Origin: Kordiimonadales bacterium
GTDB taxonomy: Bacteria > Pseudomonadota > Alphaproteobacteria > Sphingomonadales > Kordiimonadaceae
Length of the DNA: 55,272 bases
Assembly: GCA_002401685.1 (NCBI GenBank)
Contig: NVTU01000004.1
Location: forward strand, 52,027 to 107,298
Direction of reading: 5' to 3'
Position numbers and translations under genes: made by a program. Positions 32,254-40,193 of the stretch are shown here, one piece after another. A model generated the notes under the pieces. That model did not search any database. It saw nothing but the letters and a program-made list of their open reading frames with translations, and was not told where the DNA came from. Within the stretch, counting starts at the first letter, position 1, and each line of letters starts with the position of its first letter.

Positions 32254-32844
32254 GTGCATTACTCACAAATCTCAAAGTCAGAGGAACAAGATATCTACGA
32301 GTTGCGATATCGAGCGTATATAGATAATGGGTCTATAGATGCAAATCTAAGTGAAACTGTTGTCGACAATTATGATGGCGCTGAAAATTGTAAATCATTT
32401 ATAGAATATATTGATGACCAGCCAGCCGGATCAATTAGAGCTTGTGTTTACCAACCATCAAAGCCGCATCTTAGAATTCCAGCAATGGACAATTATGAGA
32501 AAGAGATTAGGCACAAATTCGGTTCAAATACGATTTTGATTGAAGCAAATAAATTTACTATTGGCCCACAATACCAAAAATGTATGAGAGCGCTTAAATA
32601 TAAGCTGCTTAGGCGCGTTTTTGATGAAGCGCTGAAAGTTAATGCTGAATTTTTACTTGGTGCCCCTAGGCCCACGCAAGCAAGGTTTTACAAGCATCTG
32701 TTTTTTGAGCCAATCTCAGGTGTCAAACAATCCAAAATAAACAAATTTAAGACCATGTTACTGGCATGCCCATTGGCAAATGCAAGGAAGGAAATTCGGG
32801 AAAATCCAAAGTATCACAATTTAAGGGCCATTGGGTTTGTATAA
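32254..32844 (+). CDS. FeeM-like N-acyl amino acid synthase (GNAT/autoinducer-synthase fold)
   Basis: The 196-residue protein starts with GTG behind AGGGAG. Its N-terminus (YSQISKSEEQDIYELRYRAYIDNGSI, then DNYDGAENCKSFIEYIDDQPAGSIRACVY) matches the pattern of FeeM-like N-acyl amino acid synthases, which share the LuxI/GNAT fold and acylate an amino acid from acyl-ACP. The later LIEANKFTIGPQYQ and LLGAPRPTQARFYKHLFFEPISG segments fit the same family. The coding sequence is visibly AT-rich (many AAT, ATT, AAA, AGA codons) compared with the core genes, suggesting transfer. It precedes a sensor kinase gene by 215 nt. Confidence 0.72.
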   Translation: MHYSQISKSEEQDIYELRYRAYIDNGSIDANLSETVVDNYDGAENCKSFIEYIDDQPAGSIRACVYQPSKPHLRIPAMDNYEKEIRHKFGSNTILIEANKFTIGPQYQKCMRALKYKLLRRVFDEALKVNAEFLLGAPRPTQARFYKHLFFEPISGVKQSKINKFKTMLLACPLANARKEIRENPKYHNLRAIGFV

Positions 32845-33059
32845 AAAACGAATTCTAACAGTCCTTGGTGGGACTAAAATTTCCGTATTGGTTGTGCTAT
32901 ATGTCACTATAGGGTGTACTTCTTGCCTAATTGTCCCAAATAGTTTAGAGCATATTTATAAAGGATAATTATTAGCTCGTTAGTATGCGGCTTAAAGGGT
33001 ATCAAAATAACCAATACAGTTAAGAGGAAACGAAACTTGAATAAAAAGGAAATTATGCT

Positions 33060-35174
33060 GTGATTGCGTATGTAATTGCAGCGATATTTGACTTTTTGTT
33101 GGCTGGGTTCGTCTTACTTCACGGGAAATCTCGCACCGCTGTTGCATTTTCGATTTTGTCCGCTAGTGCAGGCGTATGGACCATAGAGTTGTTTTTCCTA
33201 ACGCGGATTAGTGACCTAAGTTTGCTAGAGCCTCTTTTCCACATTTTTAGGCTAGGGCTATTTTTGTTGGCTCCTTTCCTCATAATTTTTCACACGTTGA
33301 TCACTAGAACATTTGTTGGAACTGGCCTTAAGGTTTTGATCGGCTGTTCGTTGGCCACAAGTTTACTTATTTATGGGCTGAATGTTTCTATTTTTCCGAC
33401 CCAGCTATATCAGGTTCCGGTTGGTTATTCCGCTCGGTTTGATCCCATAGCAGCGGTCTATCTTGTGAATTTCATCGTGGCCTGCGGGATTTCGGCTTTG
33501 TTGACGTACAATGCTTATCGAAAAGCCATCTTCAAGGAAAAGTTGCGTCTCAAGTGGTTGGTAATTGGTGTCGTAATCGGCGGCATTCTGGGGTTGATTA
33601 GTTTTAAATTCCCTAAGCTTTTCATAGGAACAATGGGCAGTGTCATCAGCTTGTGTTTCATCGCTTACTCCGTGATAATGCATAGGCCTATCGGCGTGAG
33701 AGCTGGCATAAGTAATGGTGCGGTAAAGGCAATTTCGGCATTCAGTCTCATCGCGCTTTACCTTGTGGTAGATTCAATCAGCATCCATTTTGAGATGAAG
33801 AACGATGGTTTTGTTTTGGTGCAAATATTTGTTTTTCTGATAATGTTGGAAGGGTATCCGCGACTGGTAAAGTATTTTACTAGGCTACGGGGCAGGTTGT
33901 TTGACCGCGAATATTATAATTATGATTTCGTGGTGCAGATGACCGCAAGGGCGCTCAGTAGTACACTGACACCTGTCGCAATGAAAAAGCTCGCAGACCA
34001 GCTGTTTTTGCGTACAACAAAGGTTGAAAATTACAGTTTGCACCTTTCCCCTCACTTTTTCCCCGATAGCAAAGGCCCAGACGGCATGGAAGGCTCAGAG
34101 CCTTGCGCCGACGATTGGCGCGCTTATGAGTATGGGGATCTTCAGTTCACGGACCACGCCAAAGGTGAGTTTGATGTTCCGCTGCGCGGGAAGTCCTCAA
34201 GTCTGAACGGTTCGGGATTTCTTGGTTTCCTTCAGCATCAAACGGAGACCACTTTCTATGATGAAGTTGTACCAAGGTATAAACGTGATTTTCAGAACCG
34301 GGGTATTAGCGCTGCGGTGCCAATTATGGTGGCTGGGCGCGCGGTTGGTTACGTTATGCTCGGCAGGCCGCTGAAAGAAGAGCAATTTAGCCATGATGAT
34401 ATTCGGCTGTTGAATTGGTTTGGCGGCGAGGTGGGCGGCGTGCTGGAGAAACTGATTGTGCATCTGCGTATGGAAAATACCCTGCACGAAGCTGAGAAAA
34501 CACTATCTGTCGTATCCCAGTTCAATGAGTATAACCACGATGTTAAAACGCCATTTTCTAATATTGAAGCGTTAATTTCCGCCGGCGACGTATTCACAGA
34601 CGAAGAACGCGAGGCAAAAATTCTGGAGCAAGTGCATCGGGGCAGCATGCTTGTGTCAACAATGGTTAATGTACTTAAAGGCCAACACTATAAAACGAAA
34701 AGCCTGTGCGACCTTAATCAGCTGGCCGAAGAAGCTATCGCAAGCTTCCCTACGCAGGCTAAGAATGTGCAGAGGAGCTTTAGCCCGCTCCCTGCTTCTT
34801 ATGCCTATGAAGAAGAATTGAAAATTGTACTGCTCAATTTGCTGACTAACGCCTTTCACGCCAAGGATAAGGACAGCCTGCAGGTGCAGGTTAGCACGCA
34901 TTATGATCGCACGCATCGGCAGGTTATCTGCAAAGTGGCTGACAACGGGTGTGGTATTGCACCAGAAAGGCTAGAGGCTCTGTGGTCACGGCCGGGGAGT
35001 AGCCGCAAGCATCTTGGCGGCAGTGGTGTTGGCCTCGCTGTGATCAAACGTATCATCGAGGAGCACGACGGTACTATTGCTGTGGTTAGTACGCTTGGGG
35101 AGGGCACCGAATTCACCTTAACGCTGCCGATCGCCGATATTCAGCCTGCGTCTGCCTCACAGGCTGCTCGCTGA
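33060..35174 (+). CDS. polytopic membrane sensor histidine kinase with GAF-like domain
   Basis: The start is GTG 33060, behind AAAAAGGA; an in-frame stop at 33042 excludes a longer protein. The 704-residue product has seven to nine transmembrane helices in residues 1-265 (7TM-type sensory region). A cytoplasmic linker and GAF-like domain (about 285-470) with VPIMVAGRAVGYVMLGRP follow. The kinase core then has the H-box FNEYNHDVKTPFSNIE with His493, N-box LLNLLTNAFHAK, G1 DNGCGIAPE and G2 GGSGVGLAV. The layout resembles PrsK- and ComP-like kinases. A small hydrophobic ligand or membrane signal is plausible, and the FeeM-like product from the adjacent gene is a candidate (inference). Confidence 0.87.
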   Translation: MIAYVIAAIFDFLLAGFVLLHGKSRTAVAFSILSASAGVWTIELFFLTRISDLSLLEPLFHIFRLGLFLLAPFLIIFHTLITRTFVGTGLKVLIGCSLATSLLIYGLNVSIFPTQLYQVPVGYSARFDPIAAVYLVNFIVACGISALLTYNAYRKAIFKEKLRLKWLVIGVVIGGILGLISFKFPKLFIGTMGSVISLCFIAYSVIMHRPIGVRAGISNGAVKAISAFSLIALYLVVDSISIHFEMKNDGFVLVQIFVFLIMLEGYPRLVKYFTRLRGRLFDREYYNYDFVVQMTARALSSTLTPVAMKKLADQLFLRTTKVENYSLHLSPHFFPDSKGPDGMEGSEPCADDWRAYEYGDLQFTDHAKGEFDVPLRGKSSSLNGSGFLGFLQHQTETTFYDEVVPRYKRDFQNRGISAAVPIMVAGRAVGYVMLGRPLKEEQFSHDDIRLLNWFGGEVGGVLEKLIVHLRMENTLHEAEKTLSVVSQFNEYNHDVKTPFSNIEALISAGDVFTDEEREAKILEQVHRGSMLVSTMVNVLKGQHYKTKSLCDLNQLAEEAIASFPTQAKNVQRSFSPLPASYAYEEELKIVLLNLLTNAFHAKDKDSLQVQVSTHYDRTHRQVICKVADNGCGIAPERLEALWSRPGSSRKHLGGSGVGLAVIKRIIEEHDGTIAVVSTLGEGTEFTLTLPIADIQPASASQAAR

Positions 35175-35265
35175 GGTGGCTTCTTAGATGTGAGCTTACG
35201 CCCCGGAAGGCTACTGGCTGGCTCTTTTAAACCGAGTGTTGCCCGGCCTTAGGTTCGGTCCGAGC

Positions 35266-35982
35266 TTAAAGTTGGGAAAGTACCTCAGTACATTTCTCAA
35301 GGGTGAGCGGTTTCTCCAAATAGGTGTCCATACCGGCGCGCAGGCATTTTTCCCGTGCTTCTTCGACCCGTGGATCATTGGACATACCAATCAGGAAAGG
35401 TGGCGTGCCGCCCATCGACAGGGCGGGAATGGCCGTGGCCATATCAAGGCCCGATAAGCCAGGCATATTCATATCCAGAAAAACCGCATCAAAGTGAACT
35501 GCCGTGCACCGTGCCAACGCCTCTTTGCCGCTTGAGTAACTGTCGACATAGTGCCCATGTTTGCGGAGAATACGCTCTGCAATGTCGCGGATCAGCATGT
35601 CGTCATCAACCACTAGAATGTGGAGAGGCTTGTTCGGCACAGCCAGAATATTATCGGTGCCGGCCTGATCGTCCGCAACCACTTTCATGGTGGGTAGATT
35701 GGATTTGAGCACGGGCTCTTCAAGGCGCAGGTAGGCCGGCTGGTTAGGGTCGTGCAATGCATCCATTTCATGCCAAAAGCTGTCCAAGCGTTTGTTGATG
35801 GCGTCAATCTGCTTGTTAATAGCCATTTTTGCCAGAGCGACCTCCGGTTCTTTTTCCGGTAGTTGGCGCGCAAAATTCTTCGCCGTGAACAAAGGCGTTC
35901 TTAGGTCATGGACCAGTCTGGCCGCGGCGGTTCGCGCTTTTGCTGATGTAGGCTCAGTAATTTTATCGTGCTTCGACGGCAT
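35266..35982 (-). CDS. HisKA-like dimerisation helix fused to receiver domain
   Basis: The 238-residue protein is unusual. Residues 20-75 look like a histidine kinase dimerisation helix, with the H-box ARLVHDLRTPLF (His25), but no HATPase domain follows. A receiver domain occupies about 120-238: acidic DDD at 126-128, phosphoacceptor Asp170 in AVFLDMNMPG, and Lys224 in LEKPL. It could work as a phosphotransfer protein or a kinase-docking response regulator. It is convergent with the sensor kinase gene. Confidence 0.8.
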   Translation of the reverse strand: MPSKHDKITEPTSAKARTAAARLVHDLRTPLFTAKNFARQLPEKEPEVALAKMAINKQIDAINKRLDSFWHEMDALHDPNQPAYLRLEEPVLKSNLPTMKVVADDQAGTDNILAVPNKPLHILVVDDDMLIRDIAERILRKHGHYVDSYSSGKEALARCTAVHFDAVFLDMNMPGLSGLDMATAIPALSMGGTPPFLIGMSNDPRVEEAREKCLRAGMDTYLEKPLTLEKCTEVLSQL

Positions 35983-36132
35983 GCCAGCCCTTCTGATAAA
36001 GTTTATACAACTATTACAAATATAAGTAGCATTTACCTCCCTAATTTATAACTCTATATTTCAAAAATAAAAGGGAGCAGGTAGTAGGGCTGATATCTGC
36101 TGCTGTTTCACAGAATGCTTAAGAGAGAATCC

Positions 36133-37194
36133 ATGACAAATCCTTTCCGTGCTGAGTTTCCATTCTATCTGCCCTGCTGTGTTTTGATGCTGGATGATAA
36201 CGAAGAATTTTTACAGTCAGTACGAACTGCGATAAGTGGCGAGCACGCAGTGCTTTGTTATACTTCACCAACTCGGGCTCTCACGCGATTGCGGGCTGCG
36301 GAGAAACAAGCCGCACAGGGATTTTATCCTTTTTCCAGCGTAAGCGATGAAGCTTTTACTGATGACGGTGATCAGCTCGTGGTTTTTCAGGCGTCGGGTC
36401 TTCAAGAAATCATTGGAAGTCCTGATCGGTACGGCATGATCTCAGTGGCAATTGTTGATGAAGTGATGCCGGAGATGCGCGGCCTGGAATTCTGCCGAAA
36501 GTTGCAGAAAAGCGGCATCAAGACCATATTATTAACAGGGGAAATGACCGATCCCGCGCAAACAATTGCAGCATTTAATGATGGGATTATCGACCGATTT
36601 ATTTCTAAAGGTGATGCGCAGGCGCTTGATAAAATAATCTTGGCAATCGCAGAATTGCAACAAAGGTTTTTTACTGATAAGTCGCCAGCTCTTTACTTGG
36701 CGACCACGGCAGCGAGAAAGTGTGGGCTGACAGATGACCAGCTTAATGCGGTAATGGCCGAAGCCCATGCAATATTCCCCTATACGGAATATTATTTTCA
36801 TAGCAAAAGCGGAGGCTATCTGCTGCGTGATCTCTCAGGTGCGACAAAATTATGTCTTTTCTCCGACCAGGAAACGCAAGGTGAAGTGGCTGATTTCCTT
36901 GCTGATCAAGAGGGCGGGCTTGCCGAGGCAGAGAAATTGCGGTGTGGCAGCCATTTGTTACCGTGGGGGTTTCTTAATGATGAATTCGTTGATGAGAATC
37001 CCCCAGGCAAAGGGACGCAAACCACGAGGACCTCATTTGCAGCACGCGCTGTCGCTGGGGCTTTCTGGTGTTTGATTGAAGAATCAGATATGCCGCCTTC
37101 CTTGTACCAAGGGCCTCGCCAAAACGAAACGTCCTGGGATGCTTTTAAGTTGGGCTTGCTGGCTGTGCCTCTAAACGAAGATACGGCGATATAA
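36133..37194 (+). CDS. atypical response regulator with inserted receiver domain and novel C-terminus
   Basis: The start is ATG 36133, with AGAGAG upstream; ATG 36115 has no ribosome binding site. The 353-residue product has receiver landmarks: DD at 21-22, phosphoacceptor Asp109 in AIVDEVMPEMRG, Thr135 in LLTGE and Lys159 in ISKG. A segment of about 45 residues (58-100) is inserted before the beta-3 strand. Residues 185-353 form an unrecognised output domain (AEAHAIFPYTEYYFHSKSGGYLLRD, GAFWCLIEESDMPPSLYQGP). It overlaps operonically with a small HTH-like gene starting 2 nt later. Confidence 0.8.
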   Translation: MTNPFRAEFPFYLPCCVLMLDDNEEFLQSVRTAISGEHAVLCYTSPTRALTRLRAAEKQAAQGFYPFSSVSDEAFTDDGDQLVVFQASGLQEIIGSPDRYGMISVAIVDEVMPEMRGLEFCRKLQKSGIKTILLTGEMTDPAQTIAAFNDGIIDRFISKGDAQALDKIILAIAELQQRFFTDKSPALYLATTAARKCGLTDDQLNAVMAEAHAIFPYTEYYFHSKSGGYLLRDLSGATKLCLFSDQETQGEVADFLADQEGGLAEAEKLRCGSHLLPWGFLNDEFVDENPPGKGTQTTRTSFAARAVAGAFWCLIEESDMPPSLYQGPRQNETSWDAFKLGLLAVPLNEDTAI

Positions 37195-37195
37195 G

Positions 37196-37465
37196 ATGCA
37201 GGTACCAAGGAAAAAAAGACCGGCACCGACCATGTCAAAAGAAAGGGCGAAAGAGATCTTGGTTGAAATTGGGTACGACATTCCCAGTCTTCAGAAAGAG
37301 CTTAACCGATTGCTTGGGACTAATTATCAGAATAGAGATGTTTGGAAATGGTTTAATACGACCTCAGCACCTCTTACGGCGCAGTTGTTCTTGTTAATGA
37401 AACAAGAGGAGTTGGCCAGAGCCGATGCTCTCAAGAAAAAACTATTTAAAACCATCGACGCATAA
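37196..37465 (+). CDS. small HTH-like protein
   Basis: This 89-residue basic protein begins 2 nt after the response regulator stop. The pattern SLQKELNRLLG followed by NRDVWKWFNTTSAPLTAQLFLLMKQEE resembles a Cro/XRE-type helix-turn-helix in which the second helix ends in a Trp-containing recognition helix. This is inference from pattern only. It may be the DNA-binding output of the signalling cluster. A shorter start at ATG 37232 is possible, but no ribosome binding site favours it. Confidence 0.65.
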   Translation: MQVPRKKRPAPTMSKERAKEILVEIGYDIPSLQKELNRLLGTNYQNRDVWKWFNTTSAPLTAQLFLLMKQEELARADALKKKLFKTIDA

Positions 37466-37682
37466 CACATAGCTATTCATTAGCCTGCTGGCCTCCCCCG
37501 CTTTTACGTACCCTTAACGGCAATACGATGTACGACCACCTCGTCTGAAGGATAATGGTCAGTATTTAGGGAATAGTTCGGTATTTTTGGATACATACAA
37601 CCTGCAGACGCGATAGTTTCTAGAGTAATTAAAAATTTATTTGTTAATTATCAACGAGTTGAACGACAGCTGCGCAGGCTAA

Positions 37683-37744
37683 TCACGAAACCGTGAGAAA
37701 AATTTAAACCGCCTGTTGTATATATACGTTGTTTACCGTATATT
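37683..37744 (+). promoter_or_regulatory. sigma-70-like promoter and dyad for XRE gene
   Basis: TTGTAT (37716-37721) and TATATT (37739-37744) are separated by 17 nt, a good housekeeping promoter. TCACG-AAAC-CGTGA (37683-37696) is a 5-bp dyad just upstream and may be an operator. Transcription would start near 37751, which excludes ATG 37745 as the start codon and supports ATG 37787. The rest of the 273-nt gap (37466-37738) holds no gene. Confidence 0.6.
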
Positions 37745-37786
37745 ATGAATATATCAAATAAAGCAATTCATGGGAGCAGGTTAAAA

Positions 37787-38215
37787 ATGGAAAAAAAGGC
37801 AGAGCCGCAGGATTCAGTGAAAGGGCCAGACCCAATTGATGTGCATGTTGGTCATCGGGTTAGGGTGCGCCGGAAAATGCTTGGATTTAGCCAGACACGG
37901 CTCGGCAATGATCTCGGAATTACTTTTCAGCAAGTACAAAAGTACGAGCGTGGGGCTAACCGTATTGGATCAAGCCGCCTGTTTCATATCTCGAATAGCT
38001 TGAATGTGCCTGTGGAATATTTCTTTGAAGGCGCAGAGACAAAGCTGCCAGGATATGAAGAGCAATTCGAAGAAATGATTAATGAAGCATCTGATAGCGC
38101 TGAAAGTCAGGATCTTCTGAAAATGTATTATAAAATCAAGAACCCGCGTATCCGCGAGCAAGTGTTAAGCTTAGCGACGATTTTGGCGCAAGGCGTTCCC
38201 GAATATAATATATAA
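37787..38215 (+). CDS. XRE family transcriptional regulator
   Basis: The start is ATG 37787, behind GGGAGCAGG. The 142-residue protein has a HTH_3 domain at about 20-80: VGHRVRVRRKMLGFSQTRLG, then GITFQQVQKYERGANRIGSSRLFHISNSLNVPVEYFFEG. The acidic C-terminal region contains LLKMYYKIKNPRIREQVLSLA, like many alphaproteobacterial XRE regulators of this length. Targets are unknown. A terminator follows immediately. Confidence 0.92.
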   Translation: MEKKAEPQDSVKGPDPIDVHVGHRVRVRRKMLGFSQTRLGNDLGITFQQVQKYERGANRIGSSRLFHISNSLNVPVEYFFEGAETKLPGYEEQFEEMINEASDSAESQDLLKMYYKIKNPRIREQVLSLATILAQGVPEYNI

Positions 38216-38407: not shown

Positions 38408-38725
38408 TTAGGCGTCGTCTGAAGACAGTTTAGTGTCAGCCATGCCAGCAACTTCAGTTTTTTCTTCGCTATCAAGACTGACGTTATCTGGGTTATCCGA
38501 ATCGAGATCGATTTCGTCTTCATCGTCCTCATCTTCGCTTTTTTCTTCTTCTTTTTTCTCAGGCTTAACTTCGCGAACGATTGTTTGCTTGGACTTGAGA
38601 ACGGGATCTGGACGGAAATCCACGCCGCATGCAATGCATACAACCGGGTCGTCATTCCCTAGGTCGTAAAAGCGCTCGCCACATTTTGGGCAAGTCTGCT
38701 TTTTGCCCCATTCGGGTTTTACCAC
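38408..38725 (-). CDS. TIGR02300 family zinc-ribbon protein
   Basis: The 105-residue protein starts with GTG behind AAGGAGAGA. The N-terminus has two CxxC pairs, CPKC (Cys12, Cys15) and CIAC (Cys30, Cys33), with FYDLGNDDPVVC between them, which is the TIGR02300 signature. Residues 55-80 are highly acidic (EEKSEDEDDEDEIDL). The function is unknown; it probably binds zinc. The family is alphaproteobacterial and commonly lies divergent from aroA, as here. Confidence 0.9.
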   Translation of the reverse strand: MVKPEWGKKQTCPKCGERFYDLGNDDPVVCIACGVDFRPDPVLKSKQTIVREVKPEKKEEEKSEDEDDEDEIDLDSDNPDNVSLDSEEKTEVAGMADTKLSSDDA

Positions 38726-38867
38726 GTGTCTCTCCTTGATATTTAAGGCAGTTTACGCCTATGAATTGGCGCATCCTTTGCCATGATAGGACGCGTCTGT
38801 CAAAGCATAACTGTTCTGTCAGCTTCTAATACGAAAAACAACCTAGTTTTAATACGGAAAACACATA

Positions 38868-40193
38868 GTGCCAAGCCTTGTATCCCAATCTCACAAAGCC
38901 CTCAAGGGATCTGCAACGATTCCCGGGGACAAATCTATTTCACACCGCGCCCTAATGTTGTCGGCGCTGGCCGTTGGCGAAAGCCGAATCACAGGCTTGC
39001 TCGAAGGGGAAGATGTTATTGCCACCGCGAATGCTATGCGTGCGATGGGAGCAACGATTGAGAGAGTAGGTGACGGCGAATGGCGCGTGCACGGCGTCGG
39101 CGTCGGCGGTTTGATGACACCAGCTGACATCATTGATATGGGGAACTCTGGTACCTCTACACGGCTGTTGATGGGGTTGATGGCAAGCCACGACATTACT
39201 GTGACAATGACAGGCGATGACAGTTTGCGCGGTAGGCCGATGGCGCGGGTTATTGACCCACTCACGGAAGTGGGCGCGACATTTGCAGCGCGAGACGAAC
39301 AATATCTACCGCTGACACTTACGGGAACCGACTTCCCGGTGCCGCTAGACTATACGCCGCCAATGGCCAGCGCGCAGGTCAAATCAGCTGTCTTGCTGGC
39401 GGGTCTAAATACACCGGGGGTCACAACAGTACGCGAAAAAGTGGCCACGCGTGACCACACTGAGCGGATGCTGGCTGCCATGGGCGCTGATATTAGCGTG
39501 GAGCAGGAAGGTGATATACGTGTGGTGAAGCTTGTTGGTCAGCCAGAACTGAAGCCGATCACGCTTGAAGTGCCGGGCGATATATCCTCCAGCGCTTTTG
39601 TTTTGGTCGCAGCGAGCATTGTTGAGGGGTCCGATGTGACCCTTGAGGGGGTCGGCCTTAATCCGCTGCGTACAGGCATTGTCGCGGCGCTTCAGCAAAT
39701 GGGCGCTGATATTTCTGTCATTAATGAACGTTTTCTGGGCGGTGAGCCTGTGGCCGACTTGCATATCAAAGCAGCCAAACTGCACGGAGTGACCGACCTG
39801 AAGGTGGACCCGTCGACCATGATTGATGAATTCCCTGTTTTGTTTTGCGCTGCCGCCACCGCGAACGGCACCAGCCGATTCACGGGCCTCGAAGAACTGC
39901 GCGTCAAGGAAAGTGATCGCCTCGCTTTGATGGCGGCAGGCTTGAAAGCAAACGGCGTTGAGGTAATAGAATTTAAGGATGGCATTGAAATTAAAGGCGC
40001 CGCCGGCAAAGTGCCGGGCGGGGGAACGGTGGCTACCGCCCTAGATCACCGCATTGCCATGAGCTTTGCTGTGCTAGGCCAGATGGCGGAAAACTCAATC
40101 ACCATTGATGATGCGACGCCGATTGCCACCAGTTTCCCAACTTTCACAGGCTTGATGCAAAAATTGGGGGCCGGCCTTATTTTGGGGGACTAA
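38868..40193 (+). CDS. aroA: EPSP synthase (3-phosphoshikimate 1-carboxyvinyltransferase), class II-like
   Basis: AroA catalyses the sixth step of the shikimate pathway. The 441-residue protein starts with GTG. It has GDKSISHRALMLSALA, MGNSGTSTRLLMGL, RGRPMARVIDPLTEVGA, MASAQVKSAVLLAGLNTPG, RDHTERML and LRVKESDRL. The motifs GDKS, SAQVK and RDHTE match class II EPSP synthases such as CP4. The position of CP4 Ala100 is Gly here (GNSGT). It heads the conserved block with cmk and rpsA, although a minus-strand gene lies between. Confidence 0.96.
   Translation: MPSLVSQSHKALKGSATIPGDKSISHRALMLSALAVGESRITGLLEGEDVIATANAMRAMGATIERVGDGEWRVHGVGVGGLMTPADIIDMGNSGTSTRLLMGLMASHDITVTMTGDDSLRGRPMARVIDPLTEVGATFAARDEQYLPLTLTGTDFPVPLDYTPPMASAQVKSAVLLAGLNTPGVTTVREKVATRDHTERMLAAMGADISVEQEGDIRVVKLVGQPELKPITLEVPGDISSSAFVLVAASIVEGSDVTLEGVGLNPLRTGIVAALQQMGADISVINERFLGGEPVADLHIKAAKLHGVTDLKVDPSTMIDEFPVLFCAAATANGTSRFTGLEELRVKESDRLALMAAGLKANGVEVIEFKDGIEIKGAAGKVPGGGTVATALDHRIAMSFAVLGQMAENSITIDDATPIATSFPTFTGLMQKLGAGLILGD

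Follow-up and report, generated by a model that had tools for sequence, protein, structure and literature searches.

We analyzed a gene cluster from a marine relative of Kordiimonas that combines a putative N-acyl amino acid synthase gene, feeM, with the gene of a membrane-bound sensor histidine kinase. The cluster lies in a stretch of 55,272 nucleotides (the window) of contig NVTU01000004.1; the source assembly, a Kordiimonadales bacterium that we call G000, comprises 2.68 Mb in 63 contigs and is about 77% complete. A sequence-only reading of positions 32254-38215 had described six genes, for a FeeM-like synthase, a polytopic kinase with a GAF-like domain, two atypical receivers, a small HTH-like protein and an XRE regulator, as a candidate lipid-signal circuit, and all six genes lie where it placed them.

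The first gene (32254-32844, plus strand, GTG start) encodes a protein of 196 amino acids that matches the Pfam FeeM family (PF21926) at 75.9 bits against a cut-off of 27, as do all six orthologues at E ≤ 0.01. Its AlphaFold model has a mean predicted local distance difference test (pLDDT) of 89.7, and the six best matches of this model in the PDB are chains of FeeM (2g0b; E = 2.6e-11; TM-scores of 0.70-0.73 by query length; 15-16% identity). These are followed by the acyl-homoserine lactone synthases BjaI, MesI, LasI and TofI, interspersed with other GNAT acyltransferases. A sequence-profile search against 2g0b reaches only E = 0.0025. Seven residues (R18, Y22, D38, D41, R62, E97 and K100) are identical in 6/6 orthologues, and this set seems to resemble the conserved residues of LuxI. 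The family model and the best-matching fold thus agree with the earlier FeeM-like assignment. That reading had also called the whole cluster AT-rich, which holds mainly for feeM (GC content 0.379) and not for the kinase (0.478) or the two receivers (0.526 and 0.481), relative to 0.502 for the window. Based on family and fold, the FeeM enzyme would acylate an amino acid or a comparable amine, yielding a lipophilic product.

The kinase gene (33060-35174, plus strand, 704 amino acids) follows after a gap (32845-33059) that holds a weak hairpin. A strong hairpin at the start of this gap, likely a terminator, follows feeM in four of the six orthologous loci (z = -3.0 to -6.1) and is not found in the window or in genome G020; feeM and the kinase gene may often be separate transcripts. 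The kinase carries a HATPase_c domain (78.4 bits); GAF is below cut-off in the window copy, and with E up to 1 GAF_2 matches 6/6 kinase orthologues and HisKA_7TM (PF16927) matches 5/6 (best E = 7.2e-7), the window copy being the miss. A structure prediction, which the sequence-only reading had suggested for the seven-transmembrane (7TM) region, gives seven plus two helices in a model that is a rough guide only because its pLDDT is 65.8. These results uphold the description as a polytopic kinase with a GAF-like domain, with the helix count taken from that low-confidence model. For the comparisons below, we divide the protein into a sensor region (33060-33944, amino acids 1-295), a GAF-like region (33945-34445, amino acids 296-462) and the kinase core. 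The phospho-acceptor His493 of the DHp domain and the residues of the N, G1 and G2 boxes are all present in the window copy. Among the orthologues, the His and the N box are found in 6/6 and the G1 box in the 4/4 copies that reach it, since both K. marina contigs stop before G1; the G2 box departs slightly in genomes G001 and G010.

Two receiver genes complete the cluster. The first (35266-35982, minus strand, 238 amino acids), convergent with the kinase gene, encodes a protein with a Response_reg match of 75.1 bits and a HisKA match below cut-off; with E up to 1, both models match 4/4 orthologues (best HisKA E = 5.4e-8; window 0.003). This DHp-receiver protein joins a kinase dimerization domain that keeps its His to a receiver with its key residues, and it lacks an ATPase domain. 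His25, Asp127/128/170, Ser201 and Lys224 are identical in 4/4 orthologues, and the protein is likely to serve in phosphotransfer or as a phosphate sink. The second gene (36115-37194, plus strand, 359 amino acids) is divergent from the first across a 132-bp intergenic region (35983-36114), an arrangement also seen in G001 and K. marina. Its product matches Response_reg at 30.2 bits, exactly at the cut-off, and PDB entry 6sy9 at E = 3.4e-20; a profile of six homologues matches the same entry at E = 2.1e-43 over positions 13-284 of 351. Entry 6sy9, whose record reads only “Response regulator” and for whose code a paper search gave nothing, is taken to be Legionella LqsR. Asp27/28/115, Thr141 and Lys165 are identical in 6/6 homologues. 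By these matches the protein is assigned to the LqsR family, the regulator family of Legionella alpha-hydroxyketone quorum sensing. The two atypical receivers of the sequence-only reading are thus both receivers, though the LqsR family of one had been overlooked.

Pairing and co-variation of synthase and kinase

Across 98 related genomes, own included, feeM is found in five and the kinase (E ≤ 1e-30) in the same five, with neither gene alone at the thresholds used. These five are G000, G001, G020 and the same-genus relatives K. gwangyangensis (G010) and K. marina (G011). Two copies occur in K. marina, and in all six pairs feeM is directly upstream of the kinase gene on the same strand. The proposed neighbourhood search therefore supports the union of synthase and kinase at the heart of the earlier circuit. 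Fisher tests treat the genomes as independent although they are related, and we do not use them as proof. Scanning genome contigs with two FeeM peptide patterns returned five loci in four genomes, apparently all of them feeM genomes already found; since the patterns are narrow, the scan does not show absence elsewhere. Plasmid records searched with FeeM gave distant matches only, in four records, none spanning 80% of the query.

To place this pairing in a wider context, we used a sample of 398 genomes from the phylum, 23 of which (own included) have a FeeM-family match, giving 22 loci outside our genome with flanks that extend at most about 8 kb in each direction, and less on several short contigs. 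None of the 22 has this kinase, LqsR or lqsA adjacent, and in 20 of them no kinase matches within about 8 kb, contigs allowing. The absence of this kinase from all 22 indicates that the pairing is no general habit of FeeM genes. The other two loci, from one alphaproteobacterial genus, have a membrane kinase with HisKA and HATPase domains and a different N-terminus one gene away. In both genomes (L160:8067-11328 in G686 and L161:5527-8727 in G751), the genes downstream of feeM on its strand are a methyltransferase-like open reading frame (ORF) and one for a 469-amino-acid membrane histidine kinase, and one of the two loci also has receiver ORFs nearby. This row may be an independent second case of FeeM-kinase pairing, whose product could be a methyl ester. 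Elsewhere in the class (L091-L112), FeeM-family genes often stand, by eye, beside GGDEF-type ORFs, which could hint at another signaling role.

We next compared the divergence of the paired proteins, correlating pairwise identities over the six pairs and over all 720 labelings of them. FeeM identity follows that of the sensor region (r = 0.80), a value that the true labeling alone reaches (2/720 labelings if amino acids 1-215 only are used). The correlation of FeeM with the GAF-like region is 0.08 (318/720 labelings) and with the kinase core 0.01 (355/720). The same pattern is seen within K. marina, where the two kinase copies share 35% and 22% protein identity in their sensor parts, 73% in GAF, 91% in DHp and 97% at the start of the ATPase domain. 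At the nucleotide level the copies are 32-54% identical over the first 330 alignment columns and at least 83% identical from column 391 onward, the step falling in the GAF-like region. The two FeeM enzymes of K. marina are 45% identical; copy 2 is 71% identical to the FeeM of G010, and the sensor of kinase copy 2 (amino acids 1-215) is closest to the G010 sensor (54%). Three K. marina contig ends share 72-base overlaps within the kinase gene, and the simplest layout, with the order inferred from these overlaps, appears to be aroA, feeM1, kinase1, feeM2, kinase2, DHp-receiver, lqsR. The overlaps are also compatible with a circular middle contig, and they do not fix the copy number of the middle unit.

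The LqsR-family regulator and its partners

An LqsR-like query matches 20 of the 98 genomes at E ≤ 0.001, 14 of them at 22.5 bits or less and six at 164 bits or more. The six strong matches are in all five feeM genomes and in G027. In G000, G001 and K. marina, lqsR is inside the feeM-kinase cluster, divergent from the DHp-receiver gene. In G010, G020 and G027, lqsR comes after the gene of a polytopic kinase, near a gene for an alpha-hydroxyketone synthase (lqsA) on the other strand (L066:9012-12632, L070:6724-10394 and L071:6719-10391). In the circuit proposed below, the FeeM-kinase pair would stand in for the LqsA and kinase of these relatives. Among the 29 genomes of the family (own included), strong lqsA matches are confined to G010, G020 and G027 (526-992 bits); two of the three proteins pass the NCBIfam cut-off of 428, and that of G010 (423.9) is 4 bits short. 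The best match to an LqsA/CqsA-type pyridoxal phosphate (PLP) synthase in G000 is only 146.9 bits, at 30% identity. G010 and G020, which carry feeM-kinase as well as lqsA clusters, thus combine the two signal systems with a single LqsR.

A tree of 18 LqsR proteins places the six of this family in one group (support 100/100), with the three feeM-linked proteins nested within it (97/99). The topology is compatible with a single switch of partner; much of the deeper branching is unresolved. For comparison, we sampled 385 genomes from the class, 11 of which have LqsR (own included), which gave 12 further loci with flanks of the same reach: seven have a clear LqsS-like kinase (94 bits or more) and two a weak kinase match (30-33 bits). 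These loci (L078-L089, L136-L147) extend the LqsR family to ten further Alphaproteobacteria of the sample, whose genomes measure 0.8-2.6 Mb; none has lqsA in the stretch, and several are without an adjacent LqsS-like kinase.

Flanking genes and genomic setting

The two genes downstream of lqsR fare differently from the rest. The 89-amino-acid ORF (37196-37465, plus strand) starts one base past the stop codon of lqsR, and of the 29 family genomes only our own has it; no family match above cut-off supports its earlier description as an HTH-like protein. The XRE regulator gene (37745-38215, plus strand) has a match at E = 3.3e-49 or better in 29/29. Given these distributions, we judge both genes to be outside the module and reject them as outputs of the circuit, in which they had been included. 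Close homologues of the DHp-receiver (>300 bits) are found in four of the 29 (G000, G001, G010 and G011).

The module adjoins the FYDLN-aroA gene pair in three genomes (window 38408-40193; L064:14211-15975; L068:2700-4478). It stands before FYDLN in the window and after aroA in G001 and K. marina, and FYDLN-aroA is a possible insertion hot spot. Within the fetched stretches of G001 and K. marina, cmk and rpsA have no match. In the window, a tRNA-Ala gene is found 1.2 kb ahead of feeM. In G020, an uncultured Kordiimonas, the feeM-kinase pair (L069/L074) is on an 83.5-kb contig with ORFs that resemble, by eye, ParB, UmuD/UmuC and an integrase; this contig may be a plasmid.

Two short words recur upstream of module genes. 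An identical 17-bp word precedes feeM in K. marina copy 2 (L043:447-463) and in G001 (L064:13926-13942), whose FeeM proteins are 49% identical, and a 19-base word upstream of lqsR is common to G001 and K. marina. Both are absent from the window regions compared. These shared words are possible operators.

A putative FeeM-based signaling circuit

Based on these data, we consider it probable that the locus encodes a quorum-sensing-like circuit in which the FeeM product is sensed by the adjacent 7TM kinase, with output through the LqsR-family regulator. Strict pairing and co-variation point to the N-terminal 7TM region of the kinase as the putative sensor of this product, while gene order and conserved residues suggest that the kinase would signal through the receivers to LqsR. 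The DHp-receiver may act as a relay or a branch, the phosphoryl group passing through or past it to LqsR, which would then alter gene expression. We thus infer both the identity of the ligand and the phosphotransfer route. The FeeM-kinase pair would further be split into several matched synthase-sensor types, as matched types of signal and receptor would give the observed co-variation. We lean, by a modest degree, toward the fuller proposal that this is a new two-component form of quorum sensing, with a FeeM-made pheromone, a dedicated 7TM kinase receptor, matched synthase-sensor types and a shared LqsR output.

A number of observations weigh against the quorum-sensing-like circuit. Because feeM is next to that end of the kinase gene which encodes the sensor, linked cassette exchange alone could give the co-variation, and six pairs are a small set; linkage explains less well why two diverged copies are kept over a homogenized core in K. 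marina. The window kinase has no HisKA_7TM score and its model is poor. In G010 and G020 the feeM-kinase pair stands apart from lqsR, a search at E = 1e-20 still gives no DHp-receiver match in G020, and G027 has LqsR and lqsA without feeM. Within reach of the 12 other LqsR loci of the class sample, feeM is found at 0/12, and lqsA likewise at 0/12. Finally, the absence of lqsA from our own genome is uncertain because of the incompleteness of that assembly.

Other explanations account for parts of the data. The FeeM product could be a membrane or surface lipid, with the kinase sensing membrane state or the lipid of the same cell and tuning its production, so that no signal passes between cells. 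FeeM-family products are surfactant-like N-acyl amino acids, and a membrane sensor strictly paired with feeM would suit such control; this explanation does not predict that synthase and sensor would diverge into types while the kinase core stays nearly identical, or that a regulator of the LqsR family would be tied to them, and we regard it as unlikely. It is less plausible still, and in our judgment very improbable, that FeeM and the kinase are a PEP-CTERM/exosortase-associated acyltransferase and a kinase of PrsK type that belong to a known system for extracellular polymers, with no signal circuit. Among NCBIfam models, PrsK (TIGR02916) ranks second for the kinase, and an exosortase is present in 6/6 genomes tested. 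However, the PrsK match (89.9 bits over amino acids 393-690) is far under the cut-off of 300, exosortase and feeM are on different contigs in all five feeM genomes, and G027 has an exosortase and no feeM. Since the exosortase lies on other contigs and occurs in G027 too, the reported synthase-exosortase link does not explain the locus, and we rejected it. Scarcely credible, in our view, is a chance cluster or a set of mobile-island passengers in which FeeM and the kinase are functionally unlinked. The low GC content of feeM, the plasmid-like ORFs on the G020 contig and the change of side relative to aroA would fit such an origin, but adjacency in 5/5 genomes, with neither gene alone in 98, largely contradicts it, as does the co-variation of FeeM with the sensor region only.

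The proposed FeeM-kinase-LqsR circuit resembles known systems in part. As in Lqs/Cqs (LqsA-LqsS-LqsR), a synthase has a polytopic histidine kinase and a regulator of the LqsR family as neighbours, and in three relatives the homologues of the window LqsR adjoin a kinase and a synthase of LqsA type. Unlike in Lqs/Cqs, the synthase is of the FeeM/GNAT fold instead of being a PLP enzyme, the kinase is of a 7TM and GAF type with another H-box, a DHp-receiver protein is added, and the window lqsR adjoins feeM and its kinase gene in place of lqsA/lqsS (a clustering that is usual, not universal). In ComQXP and agr, a signal and its linked sensor change in step over a conserved kinase core, and the signals are peptides; the joint divergence is alike here, whereas the signal maker is a lipid-forming enzyme. 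The synthase shares family model and fold with the FeeM and NasY N-acyl amino acid synthases, and differs from the 22 other sampled FeeM loci in having this kinase and LqsR in reach, where many of those have GGDEF-type neighbours by eye. The likeness to PrsK of exosortase systems is limited to a partial profile match far under cut-off, and there is no shared contig with an exosortase. The Phc system (PhcBSRQ with PhcX) of Ralstonia is similar in that an LqsR-family regulator has left lqsA/lqsS and now stands beside the phc signal genes, with PhcR having kinase-like and receiver parts (PMC10653808). It is dissimilar in that its methyl 3-hydroxy acyl esters come from the methyltransferase PhcB, with no FeeM. 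In the open-licence papers searched, judged mostly by titles and abstracts, and in passages of PMC8776678, PMC11580390, PMC8762209 and PMC10653808, we found nothing that links FeeM with LqsR or with a sensor kinase. The architecture of synthase, polytopic kinase and LqsR regulator is known, then, and it is the synthase class and the receptor pairing that appear new.

If the proposed circuit is correct, it would be a second case, after Ralstonia Phc, of an LqsR-family regulator beside a new signal system, which suggests a reusable output hub in LqsR. Sensor swaps would find a natural setting in the two pairs of K. marina. FeeM enzymes are known from environmental DNA, and the role of their products in the producing bacteria is open; to our knowledge, no dedicated bacterial receptor for these products has been described. 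Under the fuller proposal, FeeM products would gain their first dedicated bacterial receptor. With a candidate receptor and a candidate output named at this locus, the role of FeeM products becomes testable.

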